64,000 nucleotides of DNA from Deltaproteobacteria bacterium (GTDB lineage Bacteria; Myxococcota; JACPTQ01): contig JACPTQ010000044.1 in the NCBI GenBank assembly GCA_016192705.1, positions 62,001-126,000 of the forward strand. Direction: 5' to 3'. Position numbers and translations under genes: made by a program. This document shows, piece after piece, positions 31,653 to 60,511 of the stretch (within the stretch, counting starts at the first letter, position 1; each line of letters opens with the position of its first letter). The notes beneath the pieces are model-generated. The model was not told the origin of the DNA. It worked only from the letters and a program-made list of their open reading frames with translations, and did no database searches.

Positions 31653-31658
31653 TAAAAA

Positions 31659-31731
<73 letters not shown>

Positions 31732-31744
31732 AAACGCAATGCTT

Positions 31745-35686: not shown

Positions 35687-38600
35687 CTAACTTAGTTGCC
35701 GAACCACGTCGCAGATTCGGCGAATCTCACCGTCAGGGTCTCGCCACCAGGTTGTGCTCCAAATGCGGGCGATTCTCCATCCCTTGCTTTCGAGGAATCT
35801 CTGTCGAGCGATATCACGCTCGCGAACGCTTCTTCCGCTATGAAACTTGGCACCGTCGCATTCGATCCCGAGGCAATATCGAGTCGGATTAGCCGGATCA
35901 CGCACAGCGAGGTCGATTCGATACCCGCAGAGCCCGACCTGTGTATCGACTTCAAGGCCCTTTGCGACAAGGGCCTCATAAATCTGTTCTTCAAGAGGAG
36001 AGTCGAACCATTTGACTGCGGTCTGGTCGCCTACTTGGATTGCGGGATTCACGTCGGCGAGGATTTTTCTTGCGACTTTCGTATTTTTTTCGGACACGGC
36101 CTTTGCGTACTCGAGATATTGCCGAAACCGCACGCGTCCAAGCCCCGACTTTTTTCCTCGGCCAGCGGCGTCACCGTCGGTGGGGATGAAACTCGGGTCG
36201 AAAGAGCAGACGACAAAAACTGCTTCTTTTGCTCGGGTGATGGCGACGTTAAGTCTGTTTTCGCCCCCGCTCGCACTGAGCGGCCCGAACTGCAATCGCA
36301 GCTCTTTACGCTCTTCTACTTTTCCCTGCTTATTCTTTTTCTTCACAAGGACCGGAGCGTATCCGACGCTGAAGATGATGACGTCGCGTTCGTCGCCTTG
36401 AATGTTCTCAATGTTCTTCACAATCGGCCGTTCATCTATTTGCTCTTTCGCCTCTGCCTCCTGGTAGTACGCAGCGAAATCGCCGTCCATCTCCTTTCTC
36501 CGCTTGATCTCCTGTTCAATGGCCGCTTGTTGATGAATATTGAAGGTGATGATGCCAATGCTCCTGAACGATTCTTCAGCCGACGAGCGAAGCTGATCCG
36601 CCATAATGTCTACCGCGATCTTGGCTTCGACGAGATTCCACTTCCCGCGCCGATTCTGCGTTCCAAACCCACGTTGTCTGGCCGAATCAACGGTGTACGG
36701 CAGCGCCACCGCGTCCTCCCAGCGCCCCTCAACTTGCATCCACCGGATTGGGGGTGCCGACTCAGCGCCGCACAAGACATTGGCGCCGACCTGAAGTCCG
36801 CCGCCGTAAAACGCCTGATTACTGAACTCGATTAATTCTTGGTGGTTGCTCCGATAATGCCAGGAAAGAGCGCTGGTGCCTGCAAAGCGCTTCGCGAGGC
36901 TAAGGAGGCTATCGGCCTTCAAAGTTTCCCGCACTTCCGTCCGATCAATATCACCCTCGATTCCATTATTCGCGTCGACTTCTTCATCGTCGTCAGCCGT
37001 CATTGACTCGAAAAAATGGCTTGGCGGCATCTGCTCCTCGTCTCCCGCGACCACGATTCTCTTTCCTCGAAACGCTACTGGAAGGCTTCGCTCGGCGGTG
37101 AGCTGAGACGCTTCGTCAAATACGACGAGGTCGAAGACGCTTTCCTCGAATGGAAAAACTTCCGCTGCGGCCTCAGGCGTCGCAAGCCAGCACGGCGCAA
37201 CGCTAAGCACTGCGGGGCGATACAATGAAAAAAGGGCGCGGAGTGGTTTTCGCGCCCGCTTTTTTGAAAGCTCATGGACGAACTTACTCCACCTGGAAGC
37301 ATCCCCAGCGTGGCAGGCGATAATCTTGTTCCGGTGTTCTTGGACAAGGTTGTGCGCGACAACGGACAGCTTTTCATCGAGTTTCTGTTGCAACTCAGAT
37401 CGGAGCCGCTCGTAATTCTTGAGCGGATTTCCACGAATGTCTGGGTGCTTATTCTCGGCTTCATCAATCCAGCCGAGAAGTACTGTTTGTTCGATTTGCG
37501 GGGACCAGTCTTCGCCGGCTTTTAGTCGCGCTGCGCACTCCGCGAAAACGGGCGCAAGCGGACCTATCTCCTTGATGCTCAGATCATAATCTTGGATGTC
37601 GTAGAAGTGTTTCTTAACGAAGGCCAGCGTACCCTGAAGAGTCTCTATGGCCTTGGGCGGATCACCAAGCGCCGAAAGGACGCCGTCGATCCATTGTGGT
37701 TCCCAAAACTGGCTCAGCGCGCGAACCGCGGCCTTTAGTTCTTCGGCTCGCTCGATTGCCGCCCGCCATTCCGGAAACGGGACCGGCGGACGACACATCT
37801 TTGTGTTGGCTATGATTGATTTGGAACGGTACCAACGCGGCAGAAAGCCGCGATACCACCGCAACCCGATAGCATCACTCACGGTGATAGCCCAGACTAC
37901 CTGTTCCCGTTGCGAATCGTCGTGGATGTTCCAGGTCGTTGCCGCGCGGCGCAGAAGGTCAATGGCCCGCTCGAATTGTTGGAGTTGGAGCAGTTTCTCG
38001 TTGTTCGACAGGCTACCCCATTTTTTCCTCAGGTAGACCGGTGATGCAGTCCGATCGAATCGGTCGAATCCGTTGGCGAGTCTCTTGGCAAGGGCGCAGG
38101 CTTTTTCGAGAGCCGAGACGTTTTCGATGATGTCATCTGGAACCCTGATATAGGGCCGGAACCCCGTCTTTGCTTTCCGATAGATTTCCCAGAGTTGCGT
38201 GCCGTGAAATTGGGAATGTAAGGGCTGTGTGATTCTGCGAATCGCCTTAATCCTGTCGTCGATTTCGAGGCTCAGCGCGGCCGTACTGGACGTGGTCGAC
38301 GCACCCCTCGTTGTCGTCTCAACGACGTGGGTCAGCTTGGAGTAAATGCCAGCGCGGTCGGTAGTTTCATCGTGAAGGATATAGGCTATTCCTGACAGCC
38401 CGACCTCGTGCAGTCGCCGATACACGACATCGAGAGCGACGCGTTTTTGACAGCAGACAAGGACACGTTGACCTCGGCCGACGGCATTCGCAATGAGATT
38501 CACGATCACCTGGGACTTTCCCGTGCCCGGGGGACCATGGACAACAGTGCAGTCGTCGGATTGCGCCCGAACGAGAATAGCCTCCTGGGACGGATCGCTG

Positions 38601-39629
38601 GGGACGACGCCGTCGAATTCGCGATCGGGGATGGAATCTAAATCAAGTTCGATCCCGTTCACTACGTCTGTTGAAGATGCCGGATTTCTGCGTTCTTTTC
38701 CGCCATCGGTGAAGCCCAAGAGCTTGTTAACCACCGGGTGCCCTAAATCATCTTGTTCAGCGAGGCCAAGCAACTTCTCGAGATCCGCGTGAAGGGAAGT
38801 GCTTGACTGCCGAAAGATGCCAAGGACCGAGTAGCTAACCAGGGCAAGCGGGGTCTCGCCATATGCCCCGCAGCCGGTTTCGTCCTTCAGGTCTGGAATA
38901 CGATCAAATGGCTCATAAGGGCGCGCCTGAACATGAATCCCTGCTTCGGCGAGGATTGATGTAATCTGCGAAAAAGCTTTCGCCCCATCCACAGAATCAT
39001 CGTCCGTTAGTCTTCCTAATATCTCGTCGCGAAACTGATCCGCTATGCTGACACCGCAATGCTTCTGTACTGCCCTCACGAGGGCGTCATTGGGGGTAAC
39101 TTCGCCGGCCGCACTAAGAAACCAGCCCGACTGTTCATGCGCTACCGCCGCAGGAATAAGTATGAGAGGGGCTCTCACCAGAAAATCCTTGGACAGCCAA
39201 CCTTCCAGCCAAGCAAGCCCTACGAACAAATTGCTCTTGCCGGTTTCCTCGGCAAGAGCGTCGGCTGTTCTCTTGAGGCGCCGGAGGTTCTCGCGACTTT
39301 TGTCGGCGTCCTCAGTCAAGAGTCGATCGGGGAGAAGCGAAATGTTCAAGTTGGGGCGTTGGATCGCAGTTAGAAGCGCGGAAGATAGATGCGGCAGTCG
39401 GCCGCCCAAGTCGAAACTTGATTTTTGAGTGACCTTGCGGAATTTGATGCTCGGGTTACTCTTGTCAATTCTCAGAAGGCGATCGCGAAACGTTTTGAGG
39501 ATTTGAGCAACGTCGGCGCGGGATCGGCCGGCTGTAACGCTCGCGCGACTCGGAGAAAAGGTTGTCGCGCCGTTCTGAAGGTGGAGACGCTCGGCTGGAA
39601 CAAAGCCGTCTCCCTCCATTCGTTGATCT

Positions 39630-39640
<11 letters not shown>
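35687..39640 (-). CDS. SF1 helicase with C-terminal Vsr/MTES_1575-like nuclease domain
   Basis: A 1317-residue protein. The N-terminal region (about 45-160) resembles DUF4011 ([16 protein letters not shown]). The helicase has Walker [18 protein letters not shown] near 370, [16 protein letters not shown] near 840, [47 protein letters not shown] and [15 protein letters not shown], i.e. the DNA2/NAM7 branch. The last 100 residues form a PD-(D/E)XK-like nuclease: [48 protein letters not shown]. The ATG overlaps the hsdR stop by 11 bp, making it the fifth gene of the RM operon. Similar architectures occur in defence islands; I infer DNA-targeting antiphage activity. Confidence 0.88.
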
Positions 39641-42721
<3,081 letters not shown>

Positions 42722-42725
<4 letters not shown>

Positions 42726-43798
42726 GCCGTGTCCCCCTTGGCCCCCACTCTGCGCTTTAGCCAGATCTCGTCCGCGCCCTCGTTTTTCACACCTTCCTGA
42801 ATCGCCTCGACCGCCTTCTGGGAGTAACGCTTGAACACGGCTTTGCCGATCTTGATCTCCCTGTAGCTCTCGGTCTGGCTGCGAAGCCCGAGGTGATCCA
42901 CGACAGCCAGAGCCTTCGGCATCGTCAAACCGACCTTCTCGGCAAGCTGCTTCGCGCCGAGACTGTAGAAGCCCAGTTCATCGACGCGCCTTACGGCGAC
43001 GACCGAAGCGCCAGGAGTCCCTTCGGCCACCAGTTGGATGGGGACACCCGCTTTCTTTGACAACCGCAAGGAAAGGCTCGGTCCCGTGCCATCTGCCGCG
43101 ATCTCGACGGCCGCGGCACCGCGGAATACGTCGGTCCAAGCGCGGCCCTGCGAGACCTCCGTGCCGATCCGCCGCAGGTCCGCATTGCTGGGCTGGCCCT
43201 TCTCGCCCTGGATCGAGGCGTCCAGAATCGCTAGTGGGCGGATGCGCGCCAAGGCTTCGAGTCTTCTCCGCCGGCCCGGCTTCAATAGTTTCTTGATCTC
43301 GCAGACCTCGGACTCGAACAACGTCGCCAGTTCGGTGGGAGGGGCAGTCGAGACCGGAAGCACGCGGGTCGGCAGGTGGGAGGTGAAATCCTGGTCGAAA
43401 ACGCTCTTCAGCAGGTCCCGGAACAGAGTAACGCCCGACTGGACGTGCACGTATAGCTGGCCCTCCGAGATGTCGAGCAGGTGGTGCTGGGCCGCGTCCC
43501 GTAGTCCGTTGATCGTCCGGAGAACAAGCGCCTGCTCCTCGCTCAGGTACTTGATCGTCCCATCGCTTAGGGAACGTCGCACACAGGCATCGAAGCCGAT
43601 CGTCCCCTTAGCGCGCCGCTCACGAATGCGACCCATGCGGTGCAGAATCGCGGCCTTCATTAGCATCTCGAAGGCGTGATCGATCTGGATCAGCGTGCTG
43701 CTCACACGCCCACGGTCGTGGGGCCGGTTGAAGAGCTCGATGCTCAGCATAATCGAGTCGCACGCCTTCGCGAGAAGGAGTCTGGCCTCTCGTTTCAT
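42722..43798 (-). CDS. DUF3644-like HEPN protein embedded in the type I RM operon
   Basis: A 358-residue protein. Residues about 5-135 match the DUF3644 pattern ([58 protein letters not shown]). The last segment contains Arg100-x4-His105, the RNase signature of HEPN domains. The remainder (about 150-358) is of unknown fold and includes a predicted helix-turn-helix-like stretch ([21 protein letters not shown]). The ATG at 43798 overlaps the hsdS stop by 4 bp and the end overlaps hsdR by 4 bp. By family it may act as an abortive-infection RNase tied to restriction; this is inference. Confidence 0.78.
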
Positions 43799-45034
43799 GA
43801 GCCGATCTTCTCCATGAACCGCGTGGCCTGCTCCAGCCGCAGCTCGCCGGAGATGAGCTTGGGCAGCAGTGCGTCGCGCAGAACAGCGAGGGTGCGGGAT
43901 TCGCGGTGCGACGCGTGTTCCTTGAGGCGCAGCGAGTGGACCACGGCGCAAAACTCGTCCAGTATTTGGTCCGGGGCACACACGACCTGCAAAGAGGCCA
44001 TCGACGAGTTGGGAATGAATGGCTGTGCCGAACCCGTGCGCATTCCATCGAACTCGGTCATGAGCATTGCCTGCAGCACAAACTCGGGCCAGCGCTTCGG
44101 AACAACTGAGCTCGCATTGTTGTTTATCCACGCGCCGCTGTAGGTCCAGTGAACAGATCCGCAGTAAGCGCCGACGCGACCGAACGCGATCACGAACCCG
44201 TCGTGCGTTGTTCGATCCGCAAAACCCATAATCCCGTTGGCTCCAAACACTGGGAACGGCCCAATCGGCTGACACGCCACGGTGGTAAGCTGCTTGCCAC
44301 CGTGTATTGCAGCGAGGTCATCAAGCTGCGATACCCCCCACCCGTCTGGAATCTCCCCCAACTCGGATTCCACGAACTCGCTCGGGAAGAGCTTCGACGT
44401 CGCGGCGTCCATCCCCGTCGGTTGGTGGCCCGCGGCTTTCGCGCGAACGGGGTCGAAGTCGACGAACCACGACCTGAAGAGTGCCCGTGCCATCGCTTCG
44501 AGCGTCTCGTTCATCCGCCGGTTCAGCTCGATATTGTCGTCGAGCGTGCCGAGGATGTGGGCGATCGCGCGCTGCTCGCGGAGTGGAGGCAACGGAATTC
44601 GAACCTCCTTCAAGTCCCGAAGGTTTATCACCTGCTGGACCGACCCCATCGTCTGAGCCCCGAGGCCGGCCTGACCGATCGGCGAGGAGAGAAAGTACTT
44701 GATGAATATCGCGTCGACTTCCTTTCTCAGTCGAACCAGGCCGACCTGCCGAGCGATGTTGGCCCCGCGAAGGTTGTCAGGAACGATCGCAACCTGGCCT
44801 GGATTACCCACAAGCGACACAAGAAGCTCACCTCCTTGCAGGAGCGTCCTCTTGTATTGTGAAGAGACCTCGGGCGCTATGGTGCGCAGCTGTTCCGTAC
44901 GGATCTGACCGCTGGCAATGTCTCCTCCGCGCACAAATGGGACGCCACCGCGATCTTGCATTCCGGGCTTCACTACCCCGTAGGTGATAGGCGTTTCGGG
45001 CTCCGTGAGATCGGAGAGCGGTATCAGCGGCCAC

Positions 45035-45045
<11 letters not shown>
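43795..45045 (-). CDS. hsdS: Type I restriction-modification specificity subunit
   Basis: A 416-residue HsdS with two target-recognition domains. Each ends in a helical spacer with the conserved [24 protein letters not shown]-type motif (central, about 150-175) and the C-terminal [15 protein letters not shown]. The first recognition domain begins [12 protein letters not shown] and the second [17 protein letters not shown]. The target sequence cannot be predicted by eye. It overlaps hsdM by 11 bp. Confidence 0.93.
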
Positions 45046-46615
<1,570 letters not shown>

Positions 46616-47409: not shown

Positions 47410-47685
47410 CTACAGCTTCAGTTTCTTGCGCGCCTCACTCCAGGGGATCAGCTTCTCCTTTTTCGCCGCAACGCGTGCCAATACGCGCCGCGCGGCCACC
47501 GAATCGTGCCGATCCTCAATCTCCTCCAAGGCACTCAAATCCTCAATCGGTATGAGTGCCGCAACTTGCTTTCCATGCCGTTCGAGGACGATTCGCTCCT
47601 TGCCATACGCGACGCGATTCAAGGTGTCCGCAAAATCCTCTCGAATCTCGCTGGTCGTCAAAGCCCTCGCTGATGTGCGTGCCAT
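47410..47685 (-). CDS. Phd/YefM-type antitoxin
   Basis: A 91-residue protein. LTTSEIREDFADTLNRVAYG and RIVLERHGKQVAALIPIEDL form the DNA-binding Phd/YefM domain, and the basic C-terminal helix (ARVAAKKEKLIPWSEARKKL) should wrap the toxin. AAAGG precedes the ATG, and a TATAAT lies about 35 bp upstream on the same strand. Confidence 0.87.
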   Translation of the reverse strand: MARTSARALTTSEIREDFADTLNRVAYGKERIVLERHGKQVAALIPIEDLSALEEIEDRHDSVAARRVLARVAAKKEKLIPWSEARKKLKL

Positions 47686-47750: not shown

Positions 47751-48731
47751 TCACTCGCCGTAGCGCAAGAGCGTCCCGTTCGCGCGCGCGATCACGGCGC
47801 GGCGGAGTTTGTCGGGTTCGAGGACGGTCGCGTCGCCGCCGAACGAGGCGACCCAAGCGGCGAGTTGGTCGAGCCCCGAGACTTCGAGCGTGACTTTGAT
47901 CGCGCCGCCTTTGAGATCGCGTATCGTTTGAGACGGGTGGTATGTGCGTTCCCGCAGGTATCGCGCCGCGCGGCGCTCAAAGCGGATGTGCGCCACGAAA
48001 GGCTTTCCGCGAAACATCTTAAACGCCGATGCGAGGTGGCGCTCCGGGTCGTACCCCTCCTGAACCTCGAACGTTTCGGTCAGCGCCTTCGCGCTTCGAA
48101 CTCGGTCAACCACAAACTGCCGCACATCGCGCCGCCGGTGACAGTAGGCAATCAAGTAAATCGTGCCGCCATGAAGGTGCAGCGTATACGGGTCGACGAT
48201 TCGCCGGGCCACGCGACTCGAAGAAAACGACTCGTAGACGATGTCGACCTGTCGCCGCAGGCGCGTCGCCTCGTGCAGCGATGCAAGTATCGCCGCCTTC
48301 TTCTCGTAATTGTGCCGCTTCGTCGCGCTCACACCAAGGATACCCGCCGCGCTCCGCGCGTAATCGAGCGCCTCGGGCGACAGCGTTCCGCGCACTTTCT
48401 CGAACGCCGATTTCATCGCGTCGGCGAAAAACGTTCCGTGAAAGCTCCTGACGAGGTCCCCTGCAAGCGCGAGTGCCGCGGCTTCTTTGACGTTGAGCGG
48501 CAGCGCCTTGACGAAACGATACCCCTCGACGAACCGCCATCGCGCGACCCCTGATTCCGCGTCACTGAAAATCGGGAAGCCGGCTTCTTGAAGCGCCGCA
48601 AGGTCTCGGTACACCGTTCGCTCCGTAACGCGCAGCTCTTCGCGAAGCTCATCGATGGTCAAGCCGTTCTGATGATGGTCGAGGCTCGTGATGAGTTGCC
48701 ACGTTCGTGTCAGTTGTGCCTCGCGTGCCAC
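47751..48731 (-). CDS. WYL-domain transcriptional regulator
   Basis: A 326-residue protein with an N-terminal DeoR-type winged helix (LTIDELREELRVTERTVYRDLAAL). A helical linker and a WYL domain follow (VDIVYESFSSSRVARRIVDPYTLHLHGGTIYLIAYCHRR), then a WCX-type C-terminus (IKVTLEVSGLDQLAAWVASFG). WYL domains bind nucleic acid or nucleotide ligands and often repress defence genes. It follows the Phd/RelE pair; the start is a GTG. Its targets are not apparent from the sequence. Confidence 0.88.
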   Translation of the reverse strand: MAREAQLTRTWQLITSLDHHQNGLTIDELREELRVTERTVYRDLAALQEAGFPIFSDAESGVARWRFVEGYRFVKALPLNVKEAAALALAGDLVRSFHGTFFADAMKSAFEKVRGTLSPEALDYARSAAGILGVSATKRHNYEKKAAILASLHEATRLRRQVDIVYESFSSSRVARRIVDPYTLHLHGGTIYLIAYCHRRRDVRQFVVDRVRSAKALTETFEVQEGYDPERHLASAFKMFRGKPFVAHIRFERRAARYLRERTYHPSQTIRDLKGGAIKVTLEVSGLDQLAAWVASFGGDATVLEPDKLRRAVIARANGTLLRYGE

Positions 48732-48818: not shown

Positions 48819-49805
48819 TCACGACGATGTGCTCTGTTCCCAAGTCAGCTCAATCGACTCGCCGAGCTCGATTCGTGCGTTCGCGTCGAGCGGCGCCTGG
48901 TCGAACCCCCAACCATTGACGAGCGATCCGTTCTGGGACGCGAGATCGACGGCGAAATACCGTGCCGTCGCCGCCGCCGCCCCGTCTCGGACGATCGCAA
49001 GGTGCGGCTCTGAAATCGACGGGAGGTCGTAGCCCATCGCTGCGAGCGAACGTCTGCCGATTACGACTCCCTCGGCGTCCGGCGGGACCCCGACGACGCG
49101 AGAGACGCCACCCTGGTCTCCGCTAAGTCGCAGAACGGCAGCCACCCCAGCGTTCGCCGAAGGCCACGCGAGCGCATCAATGGGAATGAGCCCGCGAGTC
49201 AGTTCGTTGCCAGCCGCCGGTTTCGCGCATGACCGGCAGCGCCCCTTTAAGTAAATGCAGCCGCACTTCAATTTCTCCCAGGTGTCGGCCGCCGAAGTTC
49301 GCCAGGCCCGACGCCGGACAGGCAAGAAGAGGATTTCTGTCCTGGAAGTGCGGATCGCGAACCGCCGGCTGTGTGCGTGACGGAATGAGCGATTCTCGGA
49401 AGCAAACTCGTTTCGAGAGTCTCCTTCGTGGAGAAGGAATACCGACACGTCGTCCTCGCGTGAGTCGTTCGCCGTGTAGCGTGCGAGCAGGTGGCGTGCC
49501 GAAATGCCGGGGTCGCCGTCAGGTAGCTGAAGGTCGCATCGGTTGCTCGTGCCGATGGTGAAAAATACGGGTGACGCTGAAACCTGCCGGAAGCGCGGAT
49601 AATAAGAGGTCACGTCTTCGCGGGTGGCCGCGATTTGGAGGCCCTCCTCGTTGCGATCGCGGATCGAATCGAGAAGCGGCCGATGAATCTGCGAGAAGAA
49701 GGAGAAGCCGTCGACCTCCAAAAGGGCGGCGTCGCTCGGTTTCTCGGTTTTCTCGTCGAGGCAATCGGTCGGGATGGCGGCTGTCGTTTCACGCTTGGTG
49801 CTCAA
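48819..49805 (-). CDS. Double FHA-domain protein with central cysteine cluster
   Basis: A 328-residue protein. The first FHA core is TIGTSNRCDLQL...ISARH (residues 83-105), and the second is VIGRRSLAAMG...SEPHLAIV...SQNGSLVNG (248-298). Between them are four cysteines in C-x-C-x6-C-x2-C spacing (181-193) that could bind zinc. FHA domains read phosphothreonine. No kinase is adjacent. AAGGAGGG seven bases upstream fixes the TTG at 49805. This is the first of a group of genes in the island that look host-like in composition. Confidence 0.78.
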   Translation of the reverse strand: MSTKRETTAAIPTDCLDEKTEKPSDAALLEVDGFSFFSQIHRPLLDSIRDRNEEGLQIAATREDVTSYYPRFRQVSASPVFFTIGTSNRCDLQLPDGDPGISARHLLARYTANDSREDDVSVFLLHEGDSRNEFASENRSFRHAHSRRFAIRTSRTEILFLPVRRRAWRTSAADTWEKLKCGCIYLKGRCRSCAKPAAGNELTRGLIPIDALAWPSANAGVAAVLRLSGDQGGVSRVVGVPPDAEGVVIGRRSLAAMGYDLPSISEPHLAIVRDGAAAATARYFAVDLASQNGSLVNGWGFDQAPLDANARIELGESIELTWEQSTSS

Positions 49806-49880
49806 GTTCTGGCCCTCCTTGTGGCGTGATACTAGCGGGCGCAACTGACAGATCGGGTCAGCGAGGACGCGACCACGAAT

Positions 49881-51068
49881 TCATGCGGCCTCGCGCGAGT
49901 CGCAGGCATAGATGGCGCAGGCGCGGTTGTATTGCCAGCACTCGATGTGATGCGGCGTTCCGCATCGCGCGCAGTTGACGGGGCGCGCGTTGAGGTCGAA
50001 GTCGCGGCCGCAGACGAGGCAGCGGGCGTGATTCGTGGCGAGCCTGAATGAGCGAACGGTGAACTCCTCTTCCGCGGCGAGTCTGGCAGCGGCACGGCGC
50101 GCGCGTGCGCGGCGAACAAAGAGCGCGGCGCCCATCGAGAGCGCGGCAAAACCAGCGATGACGAGTGTTTGCGCAACGGGACTCGCGAGCAGGTTCGCGC
50201 GAACAGGATCTGCGGGTGCGGGAGCCGGAGCAGGAGCGGCGGCGGGGACAGGAGCGGGTGCGGAAACGGGGTCGGGCGCGGCTGAAAGCGGCGACACGGT
50301 CGCGAGCTGAGTTGGTGCTTGCGTTGCTTTGACGAGCGGGCGGAGCTTGTCCGCAAGTTCTCTGGCCTTCGTGGCGTCCTTTAAGTGAGGCGGATAGGCG
50401 CGTGCGATGGCGAACGCGGTCTCGGGCGCCGACTTCTCGATCGCCTTTGCGAATCGAAACGCCTTCGCCCAAAGCACCGCAACGCGCTGCTTCCCCTCGA
50501 CGCGCGACGCTGCCTCGACGAAAAGGGTTCCTTCTCCATTCTTTAGAAGGCCTAACGCGTCTTTCATGCGCGCCTTGTCCTGTCGCTCAGCGAGACGCGT
50601 TCGCGCGAGCGCGCACCACACGACCTTTGACCCGCCGATCGCTTCGGCCTCGCGGCAGCGTGTCTCGAAAGAGTCGAACCTTTTCTTCGCGAAGTCGGCT
50701 TGCGCGACGGCAACGATGATCCTGCGGAGCCGTTGCCGTCGCTCCTTGGCACGTGGCCAGTCGTCGGGAATCGCCCGGAGCATTTTGACAGCGCGTTCGC
50801 GATCCTTCGCCTTGAGCGTCGTAGTTCGCTGAAGTGCGCGATCGACAACGGCGCGCTGCCCGCGCTTCGATCCGACCTCCGCAACATGCGGCGTTCCCTC
50901 AAGCCGTCCGACAGCTACGATCGCAGCCTTGATGTACGCCCGCTCGCGCTTTCGCGCCGCCGCCGCTTGTTCTACGGCGGATTGCGACCCGGCACTCCAG
51001 CCGCCACCCATTCCGCGCGAATCGCACGCGGCGATAAGCGCTAACACCACGAATAGCACACGCTTCAA
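49881..51068 (-). CDS. Lipoprotein-like membrane protein with a C-terminal RING-like zinc domain
   Basis: A 395-residue protein. A leader with lipobox-like LIAACDS is followed by a helical, Arg-rich domain (30-240), a Pro/Ala linker (about 265-295), a membrane helix (about 305-325) and a cytoplasmic tail. In the tail Cys350, Cys353, Cys366, Cys369, His373/374, Cys377, Cys384 and Cys389 are spaced like a treble-clef RING/PHD (Prok-RING-like) finger. The TTG start follows GGAGGAG. Whether it has ligase activity is unknown; no E1/E2-like genes were seen in the window. Confidence 0.7.
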   Translation of the reverse strand: MKRVLFVVLALIAACDSRGMGGGWSAGSQSAVEQAAAARKRERAYIKAAIVAVGRLEGTPHVAEVGSKRGQRAVVDRALQRTTTLKAKDRERAVKMLRAIPDDWPRAKERRQRLRRIIVAVAQADFAKKRFDSFETRCREAEAIGGSKVVWCALARTRLAERQDKARMKDALGLLKNGEGTLFVEAASRVEGKQRVAVLWAKAFRFAKAIEKSAPETAFAIARAYPPHLKDATKARELADKLRPLVKATQAPTQLATVSPLSAAPDPVSAPAPVPAAAPAPAPAPADPVRANLLASPVAQTLVIAGFAALSMGAALFVRRARARRAAARLAAEEEFTVRSFRLATNHARCLVCGRDFDLNARPVNCARCGTPHHIECWQYNRACAIYACDSREAA

Positions 51069-51151
51069 GACGCTGCTCCTCCAATTCGGAGTCTACATGG
51101 TCTTACTGACAGAGTAGGACAGCGCCAAGAATCGTCGCCTCCACTCCGCGC

Positions 51152-52624
51152 CTACAGCCACAGCCCCGCGAAGATGAGCCGGACCGAGTTGTTGTACGGG
51201 TAGAGGAGCAGGCCTTGGCTGCCGCCTTGAAGCACAAGGCCGTCGGTAAGGCCGGCCTCTGAATTCGTGGGTGTCGCCGCGAACTTCCCGAGTGACACGC
51301 GCGGTGTCCATGCGCCATCGCGAAGCTCGCTTTTGTAGAAGGTGACGTCTGGGCTTGTGGTGCGCCAAACGAGCCGCAAAACGTTGTCCGCCTTGTGGAA
51401 GGCGCCGAGCGGATAGTTCATGACTGGGTAAAGGAGATCGTCCGCGTCGATCGGTTTTTCGGTCCAGCCGAGCGCTGACACCGACGAAACAAACGGACGG
51501 AGTTTGCCGCTCGCCGTAAACGCGAAGGCCGCGTCGCCTACCTCTGAAAGCGCGGTTGCAACGAGATTGCTCGACGGTGCGACGATCGTCGCGATGACTT
51601 CCGCGGCGGCCCAATCCGATTCGCCCTGCGATTTACGGCAGAGGAACGTCAACGTGCGGGTGGCCGGAACTGATTCGTCAGTCAAGCTGTAACACGCGAC
51701 GGCGTCGCCTCGCCGATTCACACGCGATATGAAGCCGCCAAGGTTGAGTTTGCCGTAGCTCCCAGACGGCACCGATTCCGACGTCTCCGCGATCTTGCCC
51801 TGCGCGAGGAGCACGCCGCCGGGCGAGTATTTTCGCACTTCGATAGACGACGTCACGAGTGACGGCGACGACGGCTGCGCACTGAAAACCGTCTTGTTGA
51901 TTTGGTAAAAGACGTTCGAATTTCCGCTCGGAAGCACGTGAAGCGCGAGAAGGCTCAACCACTGGGATTGTCCCGTCGTAGGCGTAAGCCGCTCGACGGT
52001 GGTTGCGGTTTGCTTCCAGCCCGATGCAGGCGCGTACGTAAAGAGTTCGATCGTTTGGTCGGCGGTATTCGACGCGTTTGCCGAATGCGCGACGAACACC
52101 CCTTGGCCCGCGGCGTTGAATCCCGAGTAGATCGATTGCGGCGGAAAGAGCGTATTGAGGTACGGCGTAAAGTATCCAAAGCCGTTCGGCTTCGTGTGCC
52201 GCAGCTCCGATATCTGAACGGAGCTCGGCAGCGTGATCATCACCGACACGTCCGATTCGCCAGTTGCGGCAACCGAGAAAAGCGAAGGTTGTGAGGTGAG
52301 CTTTTGCGGGGTCGACCAGGCGCCGTTTTCGTAGCGCGCGCCGAAGAGCCCATTTTGAACGCTGTCCGTGCACTGCTGCGTGAGCCAGACGACCGTGAAC
52401 GCGCCGTTCGGGCTCGCGACGGCCTTCGGGCTGCGGTTCGTGCAACCGTCTCTTTCAAGGTAGAAGAGCGCGCTCGACGAGTCGCTTGATCCACCTGACG
52501 TGCCGCCACCGTCCGCAATTCCCCCGTCCGATTCGTTCTGAATCTTCCCGCAGGCAAAAAGCGAAAAGGCAGCAACGCACGCGGCCCAAAAAACGACACC
52601 TACCTTTCGAAATGGTTGGAACAT
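51152..52624 (-). CDS. Lipoprotein with propeller-like repeats
   Basis: A 490-residue exported protein with lipobox FSLFAC (Cys25), a short Gly/Ser/Asp linker and a beta-rich body. Blocks such as ASPNGAFTVVWLTQQ and GDAAFAFTASGKLRP resemble those in the tandem DAG lipoproteins at 23316-27195, without the DAG tract. Two or more disulfide-capable Cys are present. GAGGAGG precedes the ATG. No function recognised. Confidence 0.68.
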   Translation of the reverse strand: MFQPFRKVGVVFWAACVAAFSLFACGKIQNESDGGIADGGGTSGGSSDSSSALFYLERDGCTNRSPKAVASPNGAFTVVWLTQQCTDSVQNGLFGARYENGAWSTPQKLTSQPSLFSVAATGESDVSVMITLPSSVQISELRHTKPNGFGYFTPYLNTLFPPQSIYSGFNAAGQGVFVAHSANASNTADQTIELFTYAPASGWKQTATTVERLTPTTGQSQWLSLLALHVLPSGNSNVFYQINKTVFSAQPSSPSLVTSSIEVRKYSPGGVLLAQGKIAETSESVPSGSYGKLNLGGFISRVNRRGDAVACYSLTDESVPATRTLTFLCRKSQGESDWAAAEVIATIVAPSSNLVATALSEVGDAAFAFTASGKLRPFVSSVSALGWTEKPIDADDLLYPVMNYPLGAFHKADNVLRLVWRTTSPDVTFYKSELRDGAWTPRVSLGKFAATPTNSEAGLTDGLVLQGGSQGLLLYPYNNSVRLIFAGLWL

Positions 52625-53161: not shown

Positions 53162-53579
53162 ATGCGGACCAACAACACCCCGGACGGTCTGCCGTGGCTT
53201 GGCAGCGGCGGTGTGTCGGTCAACAATCGCGGCAAGGGACTGAACCCGAACCGCGGGAAGCATTATCTGTCGATGCGCCGACGCAAATCGGAATATTTAA
53301 TTGATTTAAAATACCCGCAGAATAATATTTGAATATTTATTGGGCAGCGATAAAGAACTGTGTGACTATCTGGGATAGGCCACTTTGTTCGTTTTTGTCA
53401 GGATTTATCGCTGATTTCAGAATTTCCATCGTGCTTCAGCCAACATGTGTTGTCGATGGATACATTGGCGTGGACGCAAAGTAGTTCTCGCCGATTTCTT
53501 TTTTCTGCGTTTTGACATGTTCCCGCGTTTTGTGAGATCACGTATTCGGGGCCGAAGAACAGAATCGATTGGAGGAAAC
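53162..53579. other. AT-rich intergenic stretch between cargo and replication module
   Basis: About 420 bp with no convincing gene on either strand. The middle part (about 53285-53460) is markedly AT-richer than its surroundings, with short runs such as AATATTT. It could hold a promoter or the origin for the replication genes that follow, but no iterons or clear boxes were found. Confidence 0.4.
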
Positions 53580-54128
53580 TTGAATTCAGAAAAGCTCGCA
53601 CCCGCAGTTTCTCTTGATTTATCCGACTTGGTTCAGACGGCTTTATCCGCCGGCTGCGCAATCGAACCCGCAGTCGTCTATCCCCCCTTTTCGCGGCCAT
53701 GGTGGCAAATCAAACCGTTGAGCCCAGTGCTCGCGTTGAACGGCGGTAAAGATTTTTTTGCTACGCCTGGGGTCGACGCGCTGAAGGCCGTCATCGATTC
53801 GTCACCGGTTCCTTCATTTTTTGATGAATTGGAGGCGGCGATTTCAAAGATCGGTTCACAGCAGGGCCGTGCTCTCCGGAGGACCCGTCGACGCGGGCGG
53901 CAAATCCGCACCCCTGTTCGGACGCGCTCAAATCGATCGCGCAGCTCGCGAGCGCGCCGACCAGTGCGGCGGTCGGTCCGTGCCCAAAACGCTGATGGCG
54001 ATAGCGGCCCTCCCCAACCCAGTACGGGGATAAGAGCTGGCAAACCGCTAATTGCACAGCCAAAGTTTGGTGGCGCCGACTTTCGGCCTCTGGCGTCTGA
54101 ATTCGATGGCACGCGAGGCGAACGATGA
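53580..54128 (+). CDS. Hypothetical protein of the replication module, possibly frameshifted
   Basis: Reads as 182 residues from a TTG preceded by GGAGG (53571-53575). The first about 95 residues look like ordinary protein (LDLSDLVQTALSAGCAIEPA, VPSFFDELEAAISKIG). The next about 50 are abnormally Arg/Ser-rich in this frame, while the +1 frame over 53870-54033 is more protein-like with better third-position GC. The last 28 residues look ordinary again. Two compensating frameshifts or sequence errors are possible. The stop overlaps the next gene by 4 bp. Confidence 0.5.
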   Translation: MNSEKLAPAVSLDLSDLVQTALSAGCAIEPAVVYPPFSRPWWQIKPLSPVLALNGGKDFFATPGVDALKAVIDSSPVPSFFDELEAAISKIGSQQGRALRRTRRRGRQIRTPVRTRSNRSRSSRARRPVRRSVRAQNADGDSGPPQPSTGIRAGKPLIAQPKFGGADFRPLASEFDGTRGER

Positions 54129-54451
54129 AGCCCGAGGTCATCGCCTCCGCCCTAACGGACCTCCTCGATCTCCCGTCGCGCCTTTCAAATGTCGAGGCGG
54201 CACTCCGCCGCCTTGAACAAAACGTGGGTGCGCTGGCGGAGCGCCTCCCGCCGCCGTACAAATCGCCGGCGGAAGCCGCAATTCAACTCGGCTGTAGCGT
54301 GCCCACCATTCGACGCCGAATTAAAGACGGCACTCTGCGAGCGGTTCGCATTGGGCGCAGTTGGCGCGTCGACACAACGTCGCTTGTTCCGCCGAGCGAA
54401 GAACAAATCACGGCTCTCGCGTTTACCGCGCGCACCGGGAGCGGCAAATGA
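54125..54451 (+). CDS. Excisionase-like helix-turn-helix protein
   Basis: A 108-residue protein. Residues about 44-92 (KSPAEAAIQLGCSVPTIRRR, IKDGTLRAVRIGRSWRVD) are a MerR-like/excisionase DNA-binding domain (HTH_17), with an N-terminal coiled segment (LPSRLSNVEAALRRLEQNV). Such proteins act as Xis or as regulators of replication genes in integrated elements. It overlaps its upstream neighbour by 4 bp and is followed by the primase gene. Confidence 0.82.
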   Translation: MKPEVIASALTDLLDLPSRLSNVEAALRRLEQNVGALAERLPPPYKSPAEAAIQLGCSVPTIRRRIKDGTLRAVRIGRSWRVDTTSLVPPSEEQITALAFTARTGSGK

Positions 54452-54570
54452 GTCGCGAGCGGGGCGGACTCGCTCCAGGAGCGCGCTTCGATTTGCCGTC
54501 GCGGCTTTTCGCCGATTCTTGGCAAATGCACGGAGGGGGCAATGAACGAAGATACGAACAAGTCGAATAA
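54448..54570 (+). CDS. Possible small overlapping ORF (40 codons)
   Basis: An ATG overlapping the stop of the HTH gene (ATGA) opens 40 codons ending 29 bp inside the primase gene. The overlap style is that of its neighbours, which supports translation, possibly only to couple the HTH and primase genes. No similarity recognised. Confidence 0.3.
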   Translation: MSRERGGLAPGARFDLPSRLFADSWQMHGGGNERRYEQVE

Positions 54571-57445
54571 CGATGTGCGCCCAAGCGGGATTGTTGTCGG
54601 GCCCGACGTGCCAGACGATTTTGCGACGTTCTGCGACGGCTTTGCCGTGGAGTTCTTGGGACAAGCGGGAGGAGCCGCGAGCGAATCATCGACGGGCGTC
54701 GAGCGGGTCTGCGTCTCAGTTGCACCGATGGTTTCAAACGGCTGCGTCGTGTTTTTTATTCCGGCACCGGCGCTCGCAGCGTTTTTCAACAGGTTTGGAG
54801 AAGCGAGCAAGGCGCTCAATTTCGCTGACGTTCAGTTCTGGCTCCAGAATAGGCTGACCAAACGCCGTGATCCAGGGGTTGAGGTTTATGGTGCCGCGAT
54901 AGATTACGATCTACCGGTCGACGATGTGCTCGCCGTAATCGCGAGTTCAGATGTTTCGAACCCGACAGCCGCATGGAAAACACAAGGCGGCGCCAAGTTC
55001 TGTTACCTCTTCGACCACCCCGTCAAAGAAGAAGAGTTCGAGATTGCAGCGATGCACCTGGCGACGTCGTTTGACGGTGTTGATCCCGGCTCGTGGGAGG
55101 TGACCCACGGACAGCACCTTCCGACCGCTTGGAAGACCGTTGGCGGCGACGTACGGGGGATTCAGTTTCCGGCAACGCAGCTCAACAATGTGCCGCTGAA
55201 CATTGGCGAATTAACGCAGGCCCTGCCGCCACGAGTCCATCGGTTGCTGGGTGGGAAACGTGCTCTTTCAAGGGCGGAACGGACGCGCGTCGACGAATAC
55301 CTTTCTGAGCGGGGTATCCCAGCCCCGGAGCAGTGCGGCGAGTCGCTGCGCTACGAAAGGTGCCCAACAGTCGATCACCGGGACGCAAAATGCTGCGAAG
55401 TCAGTCGGAGACTTTCGGGGGCAGTTCAAATCAACTGCTATGCGGGGCACGGGGGCGGGGGCCGAAAAACTTGGTCAGAATCCGAGATTTTCAGTCTCGC
55501 CACAGGAGAAAACAGCAGTGACGACGGGTACGACATTATCGGAGACGTTCCCGCTACGTGGGCCGGCTACCGTTTCGTAGAGCACAAAGCAAAGGCGGCG
55601 TTCAAGGAACCCCTTGCCGCCGACCAAGTGAAGGCGAACATACGTCTTTGGGAGAATGCAAAGGCGCACGCCGACGCAAAGCGCTTGGAACGGTGGGCCG
55701 ATCGGGAGAAAGCGACTCTCGCGGACCCGCCCACCATATCCGATTGGGAATCGCTCTACCGGAGCCGAGTGAGTGGCCGGTGGAGCGCCCGGGTTTACTT
55801 CGACGACGCATCCCGGCACTTGCGACTTATCGCGCCCAACGCTGATTCGGTCGCAGTCTCGGCGAGAGGAGCGACGCTGTCTGTAACGGCGAATCGCCAC
55901 GAGTGGAGAGCCTCGCTCGGCTACACGTATGTCTTGGAGAAGGCGCCCGCCGAAGAGGACAAATCGAGGCTCATCGCGAAACGCGATTGCAACCGCGCGT
56001 TCGACTCCAACTGGAACAAGGCGATGGGCGGGCACCCGGAGCACTTGGCGGCGCTCGGGGTTCCGCGCATTCGGCAGCTCGCGTTTCCCGCGGCTTTCGT
56101 CCACGAGTCTTGGCGGATCGAGCCGAATTCAAAACAGATCGTCGCGGTTATACCGGCCCCCGCGACGGCTGGAGACGCCGGCTTTGACGCACTCCCATAC
56201 TTCACTCAGCTTTGGCGCGCCGGACGCCTCCCCCTTGCTACCGAGAACGACGTTCGTCTCTTGCTGATGGCGATTGCGTCGCCACTCCTAAGAGAAGTCG
56301 CAGCGGGGCAACTTGGTCTCTACTGGTTTATTGGCCCACCCGGCGCAGGCAAGGATTTCTTGTGTGAAATCGTCGCCGATATTTATCGACGCGCGGCCGG
56401 CACAACCGGCAAAGCCAAGTTCGATCTCAATTTGACCGACGACCTGGAACTTAAGCGATCATTCGCGGCTGCCGGAAGCGCGGTCTTCGCGCGCGCCAAG
56501 GAGGCCGGCAAGCGGGCGGGAATGGCCGAGCTCCTCATTCGCGTCGCCGGAACGGATCAAATATCGGCGCGGGGTCTTTATAAGGATGAAGTTGAGATCC
56601 CCATGACATTTACGATTCTGGCTGACTCCGCCGAGGATCCGCCCGAACGACGTGAAATCTCCCGTCGCGCGGTGATGTTGACCGTGGCGCCCGTGGATGC
56701 GTCGGTCTCGCTCGGGGCGGTGCGCAATGAGATTCTTGGGCACGCGGCGGCCATTGTGGCCAATCTGATGTCTGTTATCGAGATCAAGCCGGTGGAGTGG
56801 TACCTCGACCGAACCAACGCCGGGTCACGTCCGCTGATTCCAGCCGCGCTTGCCGACCTGTTCGGCGCCACGCTCGCTGAAGTTCGTGGCCGCGATCTCC
56901 AGGAGCTGTTCGACGGCCTCCTCTTTTACACCTCGACACTTTCCGCCGACGAAGGGGATTCCCAACGAAAGAAAGCACGTGAGCGAGATGGCAAGGAGGC
57001 GACAGTTTTCCCGTCGTATAGGCTCTCTCACGCGATCGATGCTCTTCGGGAACATGCCGGGTTTAAGGCGGTCTTCGGCGAGTTCAAGACGCGCCGGCAA
57101 GTAGAAATGTGGCTCGAGCGCGAGACCAATTACCTCGATGTGAAACAAGGGAAACGCCCCTACTTGCGGATCGAGATCGATGGAACGTGGTTCGCCTTCA
57201 AGCTGGTGCGAGACAAGCGCAATTTCGTGCTCGTCCCCGAACTGAAGTTTTGCGATGCCATGGGCCTTGAGCCTGCGGCCAGCGGTCCCGTTCAGAATCC
57301 CACAATCAGTAACACCGAGTTAGGAGCCAGCCCGCGACAACCTCCTACGGGCGAAGGGGAATCGGACCCCAACGAGCCGATGCGATTTTCGGTAGACGAC
57401 CTCGTTACACGACCTCGGCAACGCGCCGCTGGAGAAAAAGAATGA
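54542..57445 (+). CDS. Primase-helicase of phage/plasmid type
   Basis: A 967-residue protein. The N-terminal part has a hydrophobic AAIDYDL segment (residues about 119-125) that could be the DxD of an archaeo-eukaryotic-type primase. A Cys/His cluster (C264, C274, H about 279, C284-285, C about 299) resembles a primase zinc finger. The ATPase has LYWFIGPPGAGKDF near 598, with Asp where Walker A normally has Ser/Thr, and FTILADSAEDPPERREISRR further on. Overall it matches large phage/plasmid primase-helicases. GGAGGG precedes the ATG. The stop overlaps the polymerase start by 4 bp. Confidence 0.78.
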   Translation: MNEDTNKSNNDVRPSGIVVGPDVPDDFATFCDGFAVEFLGQAGGAASESSTGVERVCVSVAPMVSNGCVVFFIPAPALAAFFNRFGEASKALNFADVQFWLQNRLTKRRDPGVEVYGAAIDYDLPVDDVLAVIASSDVSNPTAAWKTQGGAKFCYLFDHPVKEEEFEIAAMHLATSFDGVDPGSWEVTHGQHLPTAWKTVGGDVRGIQFPATQLNNVPLNIGELTQALPPRVHRLLGGKRALSRAERTRVDEYLSERGIPAPEQCGESLRYERCPTVDHRDAKCCEVSRRLSGAVQINCYAGHGGGGRKTWSESEIFSLATGENSSDDGYDIIGDVPATWAGYRFVEHKAKAAFKEPLAADQVKANIRLWENAKAHADAKRLERWADREKATLADPPTISDWESLYRSRVSGRWSARVYFDDASRHLRLIAPNADSVAVSARGATLSVTANRHEWRASLGYTYVLEKAPAEEDKSRLIAKRDCNRAFDSNWNKAMGGHPEHLAALGVPRIRQLAFPAAFVHESWRIEPNSKQIVAVIPAPATAGDAGFDALPYFTQLWRAGRLPLATENDVRLLLMAIASPLLREVAAGQLGLYWFIGPPGAGKDFLCEIVADIYRRAAGTTGKAKFDLNLTDDLELKRSFAAAGSAVFARAKEAGKRAGMAELLIRVAGTDQISARGLYKDEVEIPMTFTILADSAEDPPERREISRRAVMLTVAPVDASVSLGAVRNEILGHAAAIVANLMSVIEIKPVEWYLDRTNAGSRPLIPAALADLFGATLAEVRGRDLQELFDGLLFYTSTLSADEGDSQRKKARERDGKEATVFPSYRLSHAIDALREHAGFKAVFGEFKTRRQVEMWLERETNYLDVKQGKRPYLRIEIDGTWFAFKLVRDKRNFVLVPELKFCDAMGLEPAASGPVQNPTISNTELGASPRQPPTGEGESDPNEPMRFSVDDLVTRPRQRAAGEKE

Positions 57446-59478
57446 TTCGGCCGCGCGTCAACGACGGTGTTTTCGTCGATTTCGAAACGGTGATGACAGC
57501 GGAATACTCCCTGCGGCGCATGACCCCGCACGCCTATATCAACGACCCGCGCTTCAATATTCTTTCGGTGAGTATCGCCGTCGGCGACGGTGAGATCAGC
57601 GTCTTCTTCGGTGACCGCGACGGAAACGGCGGACTGGCGGCTGCAAAAAAGGTCTTGGAAGGATGGGCTGCGCAACAAAAATGGTTCGTCGCTCACAACA
57701 CGAACTTCGATGCGCTTGTCGCAAGAACTCACCTGGGGGTTTTTTTTGAAAGGCATTTCGACACGGTCGCGTACCTTCGGTTTCTCGGGGTCAAAGGGGA
57801 ATTGAAAACCGGGGCGCATCTCGTCGGGATGGAGAAGCACGTGGCGCCGAGCTTCGACGTAGGGGCTCTCGCAGAGCCTTCATCGCGCAATCATCTCGCG
57901 CGATACAACGCGATGGACGTCTTGATCTCGCGCGAGATCTTTCGGCGAGCCATCGGCGACGGCCGTTTTCCAGACCTCGAGTTTTTCGTCGTCAACCAAA
58001 CGTGCCGCGAGAACTTGGCCGGGATTCGAATCGACGCGACGGCGGCAAAGCGGCATCGACTCAACTTTCAAAACTCGCGGGATCAATTGATAGAGGCGAT
58101 GGCGCGGGAATTCCCTCAATTCGACACAACGAAGGTTAGGAGCGCGGATGCGACCAAGAAATTCTGCCGCATCAACCTCGGAGCCGACCTGACGTCAATC
58201 GACCGAAAGGACCCGGGGGTGCGAGAGGCGAAGAAAGCCAACCCACAACTCGACCGGTTCCTCACGTTGCGCGAGGATGTCGCGTCAGCCGCGCGAGTGA
58301 TCCAATTGGCGTCGACGCTGGAGCGTGGCCCCGGCCGGATCTACGCGCAGCTCACTTACGGGGGCGCCCACACAGGTCGGTTTTCTGGGGGCGGCACGGA
58401 ATCCGGGAAGTTCAACATTCAGAACCTTCCAAAACGCCGCCAGGGCGCGATTGACGCAGCGATAATCCGCGAGGCGCTCGTGCCCGATGAGAACGAGTCG
58501 TGGGTTGCCTGCGACCTCGCAGCAATCGAGCCGCGGATTACAGCCTTCCTCGCGCAACAATCGAACTTGGTCGATCGCTTCGCGGCGGGCGACGACGTTT
58601 ACATCTGGTTCGCCGGATTGGTTTTTCCCGGGAAGAAAATCACCAAGGGCGGCGAAAACAACCACCTCCGGCACTTAGCCAAAGTGGGGGTCATCGGTCT
58701 TTGCTACGGCATGGGACTCGATAGATTCCGGGAGACGGTCCGTGGCGAAGGGCTCCAGGTTGACGACGAGTTGGTCGCCAAGGTTTTTGAGCGCTATCGG
58801 TCTGAGTTCCCGTTAATTCGAGCTTTTCGAAACCGCCTCTGGAACGCTTTTGTAGAGGCGGCGCAAAACGGCAAGACAAGCGTAGTCGCTGGCTGCAGGA
58901 TCGGGCCGACGTCGGATGTGGAAGGCGTGGGGCTGTCGATCGGAGTCTTGTTGCCGACCGGGCGCTCGCTGTTTTATCGGCGGGTCAAGCGGGGGCAAGA
59001 GATCCGGTTTGGGCGCGTGGCAGATACGCTCAGATTCTCCGACCGGGTGGAATTCGACAAGGAAGATGACGGCCAGCCGCGGGTTCGGAAACCGAGTCGC
59101 CAAAAGAACCAGAAAGGGTCGGGGCGACATCTGACACCCAACGTCATCGTCGAGAATGTGGTCCAAGCGGTCGCGCGCGACATTCTCGCGGGACAGATGC
59201 GCGAAATTGACGCGCAGCCGAACTTGAGGGTCGTGTTCTCGGTTCACGACGAAGTCGTTGTTGCGTGCTCGGTGTGCCGGTGTTTCGTAGCGGATTGTGG
59301 CGAGTCCGTTTCGCGGGAGAACAATACGGGCGCGCACCGTGAAGATTGCTCGTGGATCGATGCGGCAAAGCGGGTCAAGGAGATGATGTCGCGACGGCCG
59401 AGTTGTTTAGACGCACTGAGGGACGCTCCAATCGCGTGCGAAGTCGATCAAGTGGTTCGTCAAAGCTACCGGTCGTAA
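57442..59478 (+). CDS. Family A (Pol I-like) DNA polymerase with 3'-5' exonuclease
   Basis: A 678-residue phage-type polymerase. Exonuclease residues are visible in FVDFETVM (Asp13, Glu15), AHNTNFDA and RYNAMDVLISREIF. Polymerase motifs are TGRFSGGGTESGKFNIQNLP, motif A ACDLAAIEPR (Asp358), motif B HLAKVGVIGLCYG (Lys414, Tyr422) and motif C VHDEVV (Asp603). No 5'-3' exonuclease domain. It is coupled to the primase-helicase by a 4-bp overlap, giving the island its own replication enzymes. Confidence 0.93.
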   Translation: MIRPRVNDGVFVDFETVMTAEYSLRRMTPHAYINDPRFNILSVSIAVGDGEISVFFGDRDGNGGLAAAKKVLEGWAAQQKWFVAHNTNFDALVARTHLGVFFERHFDTVAYLRFLGVKGELKTGAHLVGMEKHVAPSFDVGALAEPSSRNHLARYNAMDVLISREIFRRAIGDGRFPDLEFFVVNQTCRENLAGIRIDATAAKRHRLNFQNSRDQLIEAMAREFPQFDTTKVRSADATKKFCRINLGADLTSIDRKDPGVREAKKANPQLDRFLTLREDVASAARVIQLASTLERGPGRIYAQLTYGGAHTGRFSGGGTESGKFNIQNLPKRRQGAIDAAIIREALVPDENESWVACDLAAIEPRITAFLAQQSNLVDRFAAGDDVYIWFAGLVFPGKKITKGGENNHLRHLAKVGVIGLCYGMGLDRFRETVRGEGLQVDDELVAKVFERYRSEFPLIRAFRNRLWNAFVEAAQNGKTSVVAGCRIGPTSDVEGVGLSIGVLLPTGRSLFYRRVKRGQEIRFGRVADTLRFSDRVEFDKEDDGQPRVRKPSRQKNQKGSGRHLTPNVIVENVVQAVARDILAGQMREIDAQPNLRVVFSVHDEVVVACSVCRCFVADCGESVSRENNTGAHREDCSWIDAAKRVKEMMSRRPSCLDALRDAPIACEVDQVVRQSYRS

Positions 59479-59827
59479 CGCGGCAGGATGTGCAAACACC
59501 GAAGGGCGAAGTTGGCCTCGTGTCTACTCGCGCCCCAGACCCGCCCCTGGGTTGCCCCAGGCCTCCCCCAATCCAACCCCCTGGAATCACTGGTTGCCCC
59601 GGTACCCCAGCCTGAAACGGGACAAGAAAACGAAAGAGTTTTCCTGATTCTGGCAGAAGGGCAGTTCGGATTGCCTTAAAGGTGCCATCGCCGAAGTGGC
59701 TGACAAGGGCCGGGGCGCTGGGGCGGCCCGTGATTTCGCGGAGTTATGGCGCGATCCGACTTGGGGCAGACTTGGGGCGTGAAGCGGTGAGCGGGGGCGT
59801 TTCTCGCAAGGTACGCGTGACCGGCTC
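59479..59827. other. Intergenic region after the polymerase gene
   Basis: About 350 bp without a convincing gene. A 6-bp stem hairpin CCTGGG-TTGC-CCCAGG at 59546-59561 lies about 70 bp after the stop in a C-rich, repetitive stretch (several CCCC and GGTTGCCCC blocks). It has no T-run, so a terminator role is uncertain. Confidence 0.35.
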
Positions 59828-60133
59828 TCAGGCGCGCAGAGCGGTTATCGCAGCGTCGACGGTATCAAAGGGACCGCGGACGCGGCCAGCGGCATTGTCG
59901 GCGTCCGCTTCCCGCTCTTGGGCCTGCCATTCCGGCGTCCAGAAAAACCGCTGCGCGCGCGGAATTCGCCCGGCCGGAATTAGGTAGACGCCGTCTCCAA
60001 GGAACACGACTTCGATCTTGGCGCCCTTTCGAAGCCGCATTCGACGCGTCATTGCCTCCGGAAGCCGCACGCGAACTTCTCGTTTTAGGCCAAGCTTTAC
60101 TGTTGCCGTCGCGAGTCCCTTCGATACACTCAT
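59828..60133 (-). CDS. AbrB/SpoVT-domain protein at the right end of the island
   Basis: A 101-residue protein. TATVKLGLKREVRVRLPEAM and RLRKGAKIEVVFLGDGVYLI form an AbrB-type hairpin domain, and the C-terminus is acidic, as in MazE-like antitoxins (DADNAAGRVRGPFDTVDAAI). No toxin gene accompanies it. The ATG at 60133 is taken because the domain starts there. The upstream sequence includes a piece resembling the integrase C-terminus and, beyond it, the stranded tRNA promoter reading in this direction. Confidence 0.72.
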   Translation of the reverse strand: MSVSKGLATATVKLGLKREVRVRLPEAMTRRMRLRKGAKIEVVFLGDGVYLIPAGRIPRAQRFFWTPEWQAQEREADADNAAGRVRGPFDTVDAAITALRA

Positions 60134-60160: not shown

Positions 60161-60187
60161 TGTAACCATACTGTAACCAAATGCACC
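60161..60187. promoter_or_regulatory. Paired TGGTTAC motifs, candidate integrase arm site (right)
   Basis: Two TGGTTAC copies (minus strand) 11 bp apart, matching 31787-31813 at 24 of 27 bases with the same orientation. They lie about 110 bp inside the right attachment site and just upstream of the AbrB-like gene. Confidence 0.5.
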
Positions 60188-60294: not shown

Positions 60295-60335
<41 letters not shown>

Positions 60336-60368
60336 GAACCCGATAGACGAGACGAAAACGCAGCAAAA

Positions 60369-60398
60369 GATATCGCTCGCTCGCGGACACGGTGTCAA
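60369..60398 (-). promoter_or_regulatory. Stranded native tRNA-Phe promoter
   Basis: On the minus strand a perfect TTGACA (60393-60398) and a GATATC/TATCTT -10-like box (GATATC at 60369-60374) are spaced 18 bp and lie about 34 bp before the tRNA half at 60335. This looks like the original tRNA promoter, cut from its gene by island insertion. It should now transcribe the tRNA half and run into the AbrB-like gene. Confidence 0.6.
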
Positions 60399-60511
60399 GT
60401 CGAGCCATATGCGGGGTTCAGGTCGTCCAACGAATGCCGGAACGCTCGCGGAGGGCAATGTGCTTGTAGATTGTGAGTCGGATCGGCGAGGCGCGTGCTA
60501 GGCTCGTGGCG

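Follow-up and report, generated by a model that had tools for sequence, protein, structure and literature searches.

What kind of mobile element sits in a tRNA gene, brings a DNA polymerase of its own, and encodes no recognizable means of leaving the cell? The question is raised by a 28.6-kb island in the window (the whole 64-kb stretch of DNA analyzed here), which is part of a draft genome (88 contigs, 96.65% complete, 16S gene absent) whose host is the sole listed member of its family among 195 genomes of the host phylum. Our analysis favors, with moderate confidence, an intact and probably excisable self-replicating integrative island; its transfer would depend on something else, because the island is without genes for cell-to-cell transfer.

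The island is bounded by an exact 41-bp repeat of tRNA-Phe sequence, with its copies 28,604 bp apart; it is the longest exact direct repeat within the window (Table 1). The left copy is contained in a minus-strand tRNA-Phe(GAA) gene that is intact, and the stop codon of a tyrosine integrase is located 12 bp from the 5′ end of this tRNA, on the same strand. Of six GTAACCA occurrences in the window, four belong to paired GTAACCA-N4-GTAACCA repeats, one near each end of the island, that resemble arm sites of an integrase. Direct att repeats in a tRNA gene, an integrase at one end, and a Xis-like protein together identify a site-specific integrative island of the tyrosine-integrase type.

Table 1. 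Features of the island and its ends (positions in the window)
Feature	Position	Strand	Evidence or remark
tRNA-Phe(GAA), integration target	31658..31732	-	nt 2-42 (5′ part) form the repeated core
Left att core, 41 bp	31691..31731		Identical to 60295-60335
Tyrosine integrase, 422 aa	31745..33013	-	PF00589 9.7e-18; phrog_1 5.1e-52
Arm-type-like tandem repeat GTAACCA-N4-GTAACCA	31788..31805	+	Within the 3′ end of int
HTH protein, 180 aa	34031..34573	+	No assignable function
MNT-type nucleotidyltransferase, antitoxin-like	34690..35025	+	PF01909 1.7e-8; MntA model 8.8e-9, below cut-off
HEPN protein, toxin-like	35015..35428	+	PF05168 6.3e-22
DUF4011/SF1-helicase/MTES_1575 nuclease	35687..39640	-	ProA/Hhe/PDC-S37-like defense protein
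Type I restriction HsdR	39630..42725	-	
DUF3644/PDC-S19 protein	42722..44275	-	Flanked by hsdR and hsdS within the type I R-M operon
Type I HsdS	43795..45045	-	
Type I HsdM	45035..46615	-	
Phd/YefM antitoxin	47410..47685	-	PF02604 2.7e-13
WYL-domain regulator	47751..48731	-	
Three-gene group	48819..52624	-	FHA protein; membrane protein with C-terminal Prok-RING; lipoprotein-like 490-aa protein
A+T-rich leader	53225..53525		37-46% GC; exact 10-bp inverted repeat CAGCGATAAA/TTTATCGCTG
First module ORF, 182 aa	53580..54128	+	Function not assigned; GGAGG before TTG start
Excisionase-family HTH (Xis-like)	54125..54451	+	TIGR01764 'excise' 1.7e-10, above cut-off; PF12728 2.1e-8
Probable primase-helicase, 967 aa	54542..57445	+	AEP-like D121xD123, K152, D181; Cys/His cluster 274-303; SF3-like P-loop ATPase from ~593
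Family A DNA polymerase, 678 aa	57442..59478	+	PF00476 1.6e-21; phrog_17 1.6e-56 over nearly full length
Non-coding stretch 3′ of polymerase	59479..59827		Short repeats GGTTGCCCC x2, CCCCAG x3, CTTGGGGC x2
MazE/AbrB-like protein	59828..60133	-	PF04014 0.0017, sub-threshold
Second arm-type-like tandem repeat GTAACCA-N4-GTAACCA	60162..60179	+	
Right att core	60295..60335		Truncated copy of the tRNA 5′ half
Native tRNA-Phe upstream region	60336..60400	-	Stranded; perfect TTGACA

Outside the replication module, the remaining island genes have defense and stability functions. The cargo is defense: a type I R-M system, a ProA/Hhe-like nuclease-helicase, and HEPN-MNT genes. The family match of the DUF3644/PDC-S19 protein begins at residue 160, so its true start is probably near 43797. 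None of the three proteins of the FHA/Prok-RING/lipoprotein-like group, which lies beside the WYL regulator, has a PADLOC match. By eye, the 180-aa HTH protein looks like a terminase small subunit; the profile contact reaches only E 0.32, through the HTH, and the assignment was rejected.

All ORFs of the replication module are intact. The preliminary description had presented a Xis-like HTH, a large primase-helicase, and a family A polymerase as a tight run with 4-bp overlaps. Profile matches bear out the Xis-like protein and the polymerase, and ATGA overlaps are found at two of the three junctions (between the first ORF and Xis and, as had been stated, between primase-helicase and polymerase); the Xis/primase-helicase junction is instead a 90-bp gap. 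In the 967-aa protein, the helicase assignment is supported by a weak match of residues 595-700 to phage primase-helicases (phrog_1156, 7.9e-5) and by a Walker A motif (GPPGAGKD) in the C-terminal half. This half looks like the C-terminus of phage/P4-type primase-helicases; its match to TIGR01613 primase_Cterm (0.032) is below cut-off, and an acidic Walker B pair, as in SF3 helicases, is not apparent. The primase assignment is putative and is drawn from motifs: the AEP-like D121/D123, K152, and D181 are conserved in both homologs (the window protein and its one full-length homolog, which also keeps the Cys/His cluster), with no match to an AEP profile. Lysine in motif II is a variant described for DR0530-like AEPs (PMC5862659). 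The protein belongs to no Pfam family, a PDB sequence search gave no meaningful match, and no homologs were recognizable in the phage, plasmid, and viral-contig collections searched. AlphaFold models of the protein alone and with its full-length homolog had mean pLDDT values of 37 and 31, respectively, too low for fold searches.

The polymerase appears complete, with intact motifs of both the 3′-5′ exonuclease (DFET, HNTNFD, and YNAMD) and the polymerase domain (D358, K414, and H602-D603-E604). Its relation to tailed-phage enzymes is distant (~25% identity), and motif C is followed by a CxC...H...CxW insertion. The first module ORF, which has no family match in Pfam or PHROGs, most credibly starts at the TTG at 53580 behind GGAGG. 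Iterons downstream of the polymerase were considered and rejected; short repeats are present there but were matched in 21-47 of 500 shuffles. The A+T-rich leader might conceivably serve as an operator or origin, and the repeat-bearing stretch 3′ of the polymerase might be another candidate origin.

Whole-genome searches covered the 195 genomes of the host phylum and a sample of 379 Myxococcota genomes. In the host phylum the polymerase was found in the host itself and in none of the other genomes; in the Myxococcota sample, six genomes encode relatives, one of them outside the clade described below. By these counts the module is rare. Both the primase-helicase and the polymerase recur in G536 (Myxococcota), adjacent, in the same order, with a 4-bp overlap and at 39-40% identity each. 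In G216 and G245, the gene upstream of the polymerase, which it overlaps by 4 bp, encodes a Toprim-DUF3987 primase-helicase, and genes for a tyrosine integrase and an HTH_17 protein are close by; the neighboring ORFs tested in these two genomes have no PHROG family match. A comparable pair is found in G255, on a contig of short length. The polymerases of this branch paired with Toprim-DUF3987 proteins (G216, G255, and G245) keep the polymerase motifs, and their exonuclease motifs are degenerate or lost. Exact direct repeats were sought as ends of the G536, G216, and G245 elements, and none was convincing. A few kilobases from the module relative, G536 also encodes a 1675-aa protein with DUF3854, DUF927, and DNA_pol_A domains (L104:6389-11416), a fused primase-helicase-polymerase. 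In G453, a single 1580-aa protein (L109:925-5667) carries exonuclease and PolA domains behind a P-loop, with an AEP-like segment seen by eye; its P-loop part aligns weakly to the window primase-helicase. This single-chain arrangement suggests that the primase-helicase and polymerase halves work together.

In a tree of 27 polymerases, those of the window, G536, G195, G216, G255, and G245 form one clade (support 100/100); the 20 polymerases from phages, plasmids, and viral contigs all fall outside it, as does that of G453. The CxC...H...CxW insertion is present in five of the six clade polymerases and absent from all phage and viral rows displayed. Judged from these sequences, the module is part of a separate lineage of polymerases from chromosomal elements, in which the primase-helicase partner differs from one element to another. 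Recurrence of the pair, a separate polymerase clade, and a change of partner point to an evolving replicon of integrative elements and not to fresh prophage scrap. That the polymerase is conserved while its primase-helicase partner changes suggests that such elements are defined by the polymerase and not by the primase.

Several known systems share parts of this design. Pipolins are self-synthesizing integrative elements with piPolB (PMC7385651); like the island, they combine integration in tRNA genes, direct att repeats, a tyrosine recombinase with an excisionase-like protein, and a DNA polymerase of their own, and R-M cargo is common (PMC7385651). However, piPolB is a primer-independent family B enzyme, whereas the island polymerase is of family A (PF00476) and is accompanied by a separate probable primase-helicase. 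SCC/SCCmec and SaPI replicons are likewise islands with a replicative-helicase operon, and many SCC also encode an A-family polymerase (PMC7581432; PMC10061031). In contrast to the island, with its tyrosine integrase, full exonuclease domain, and separate probable primase, SCC uses large serine recombinases, and CcPol, the partner of an SSB-like protein, functions as a primase (PMC7581432; PMC10061031). The small gene of the CcPol-MP/PolA-SSB primase arrangement is missing between the island primase and polymerase. In TV-Pol elements, located near R-M operons, an A-superfamily polymerase adjoins a helicase gene and is in some cases accompanied by a lambda-type integrase; reportedly, a TV-Pol is never linked to a nuclease domain (PMC2579912), whereas the exonuclease domain of the island polymerase is intact. 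The class iii cryptic integrated elements that carry PrimPol-PV1 primases are tRNA-integrated and encode a primase-helicase without conjugation and phage genes (PMC5862659); they differ in that the island protein has lysine in motif II, is a putative AEP member only, and is joined by a family A polymerase. Phage modules with a similar polymerase (phrog_17) near a VapE-type primase-helicase are the last comparison; besides their low identity, these polymerases fall outside the island clade, and the phage exonuclease, SSB, and VRR-NUC genes are absent from the island. The best reading is that the island resembles pipolins or SCC/SaPI replicons in logic and is a member of neither; it seems to represent a type of genomic island that copies itself and has been little described.

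When the main ORFs of the island were scanned with Pfam and/or PHROGs, no relaxase, T4SS, terminase, portal, or capsid family was found. The preliminary description had recognized no relaxase, secretion, terminase large subunit, portal, or capsid gene in the 28.6 kb and had proposed HMM searches for a relaxase, T4SS, or packaging gene; these were run and found none, leaving its statement standing. Its picture of an integrated element with its own replication and no transfer machinery is also supported, and is strengthened by the homologous modules in other genomes. It had gone on to suggest a satellite or helper-dependent island; the integrated-element layout fits, but the satellite part was not upheld, as neither a hallmark gene nor an evident helper was found. 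A phage satellite would be excised upon helper infection, replicate with its own polymerase, and be packaged in helper capsids, its defense cargo blocking competing phages. An integrase, Xis, own replication, and defense cargo without structural genes do make a satellite layout, the polymerase has its distant relatives among tailed phages, and a P22-type antirepressor gene is located close to the module relative in G536. Nevertheless, the Pfam/PHROGs scans gave no match to the capsid-remodeling, terminase-small, or packaging-interference families of P4-like elements and PICIs, and no late-activation gene was found. The 96.65%-complete host assembly contains a single marginal match (72 residues) to phrog_2 (large terminase), and with no clear terminase there is no evident resident helper prophage. 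In addition, at 28.6 kb the island exceeds the size range stated for phage satellites (7-20 kb; PMC13376191), and its primase-helicase is missing from the phage and viral collections searched. Pipolins and SCC/SaPI elements carry replication enzymes of their own, the search for satellite hallmarks was negative, and the island's replication proteins group apart from those of the phages sampled; we therefore prefer a self-replicating island and consider a satellite improbable.

The island might also be a decaying prophage that kept phage replication and integration genes, lost its structural genes, and received defense genes. Its integrase is of the phage type, and temperate phages are known to have a primase-helicase beside a family A polymerase. 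This origin is nonetheless very unlikely: the terminase, portal, and capsid genes of a tailed prophage were not found (Pfam/PHROGs), nor was any phage structural fragment, while the att sequences at both ends and the genes for integrase, Xis, and replication are all intact; none of the phage polymerases sampled falls within the polymerase clade; the typical phage neighbors DUF2800, DUF2815, and VRR-NUC are absent; and other elements show this reduced layout as well. A proofreading polymerase is, to our knowledge, not typical of relaxase-less mobilizable elements. Mobilization by a conjugative helper through an unrecognized oriT or relaxase deserves equally little credence, for although many islands without their own relaxase are moved in this way (PMC11389934) and several cargo proteins are without assignment, no ORF scanned matched a relaxase family, no evidence of an oriT was seen, and neither the relaxase of ICEs and IMEs nor the T4SS of ICEs was found.

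In the self-replicating island that we favor, recombination by the integrase and the Xis-like protein at the 41-bp core, which lies in the tRNA-Phe anticodon region, would release a 28.6-kb circle. Domains and the conserved operon pairing suggest that the 967-aa protein would then open the circle DNA and lay primers, and that the adjacent proofreading polymerase would extend them. Replication of the circle would secure re-integration or inheritance after excision and would raise the dose of the defense cargo; transfer would rely on outside means such as transduction, a helper phage, a conjugative element, or natural uptake. Many defense islands show no visible way to move, and a conserved replicon with a proofreading polymerase predicts multiplication after excision.

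More tentatively, the island may represent a family of self-replicating integrative elements in at least two bacterial phyla, not yet described and marked by a distinct family A polymerase branch (with the CxC...H...CxW insertion in several members) that exchanges primase-helicase partners; here, the promoter of what is apparently the only tRNA-Phe gene may also have been replaced by the integrase transcript. The polymerase of the module can be used as a handle to find such a family.

Integration into the 5′ half of tRNA-Phe has placed the tRNA downstream of int on the same strand and left the native promoter-like region at the far end of the island. No second close copy of tRNA-Phe was found in the host assembly with a 101-bp query. 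Expression of a tRNA from an integrase promoter has been described for pTN3-like archaeal elements and is called seldom encountered in bacteria (PMC8371274).
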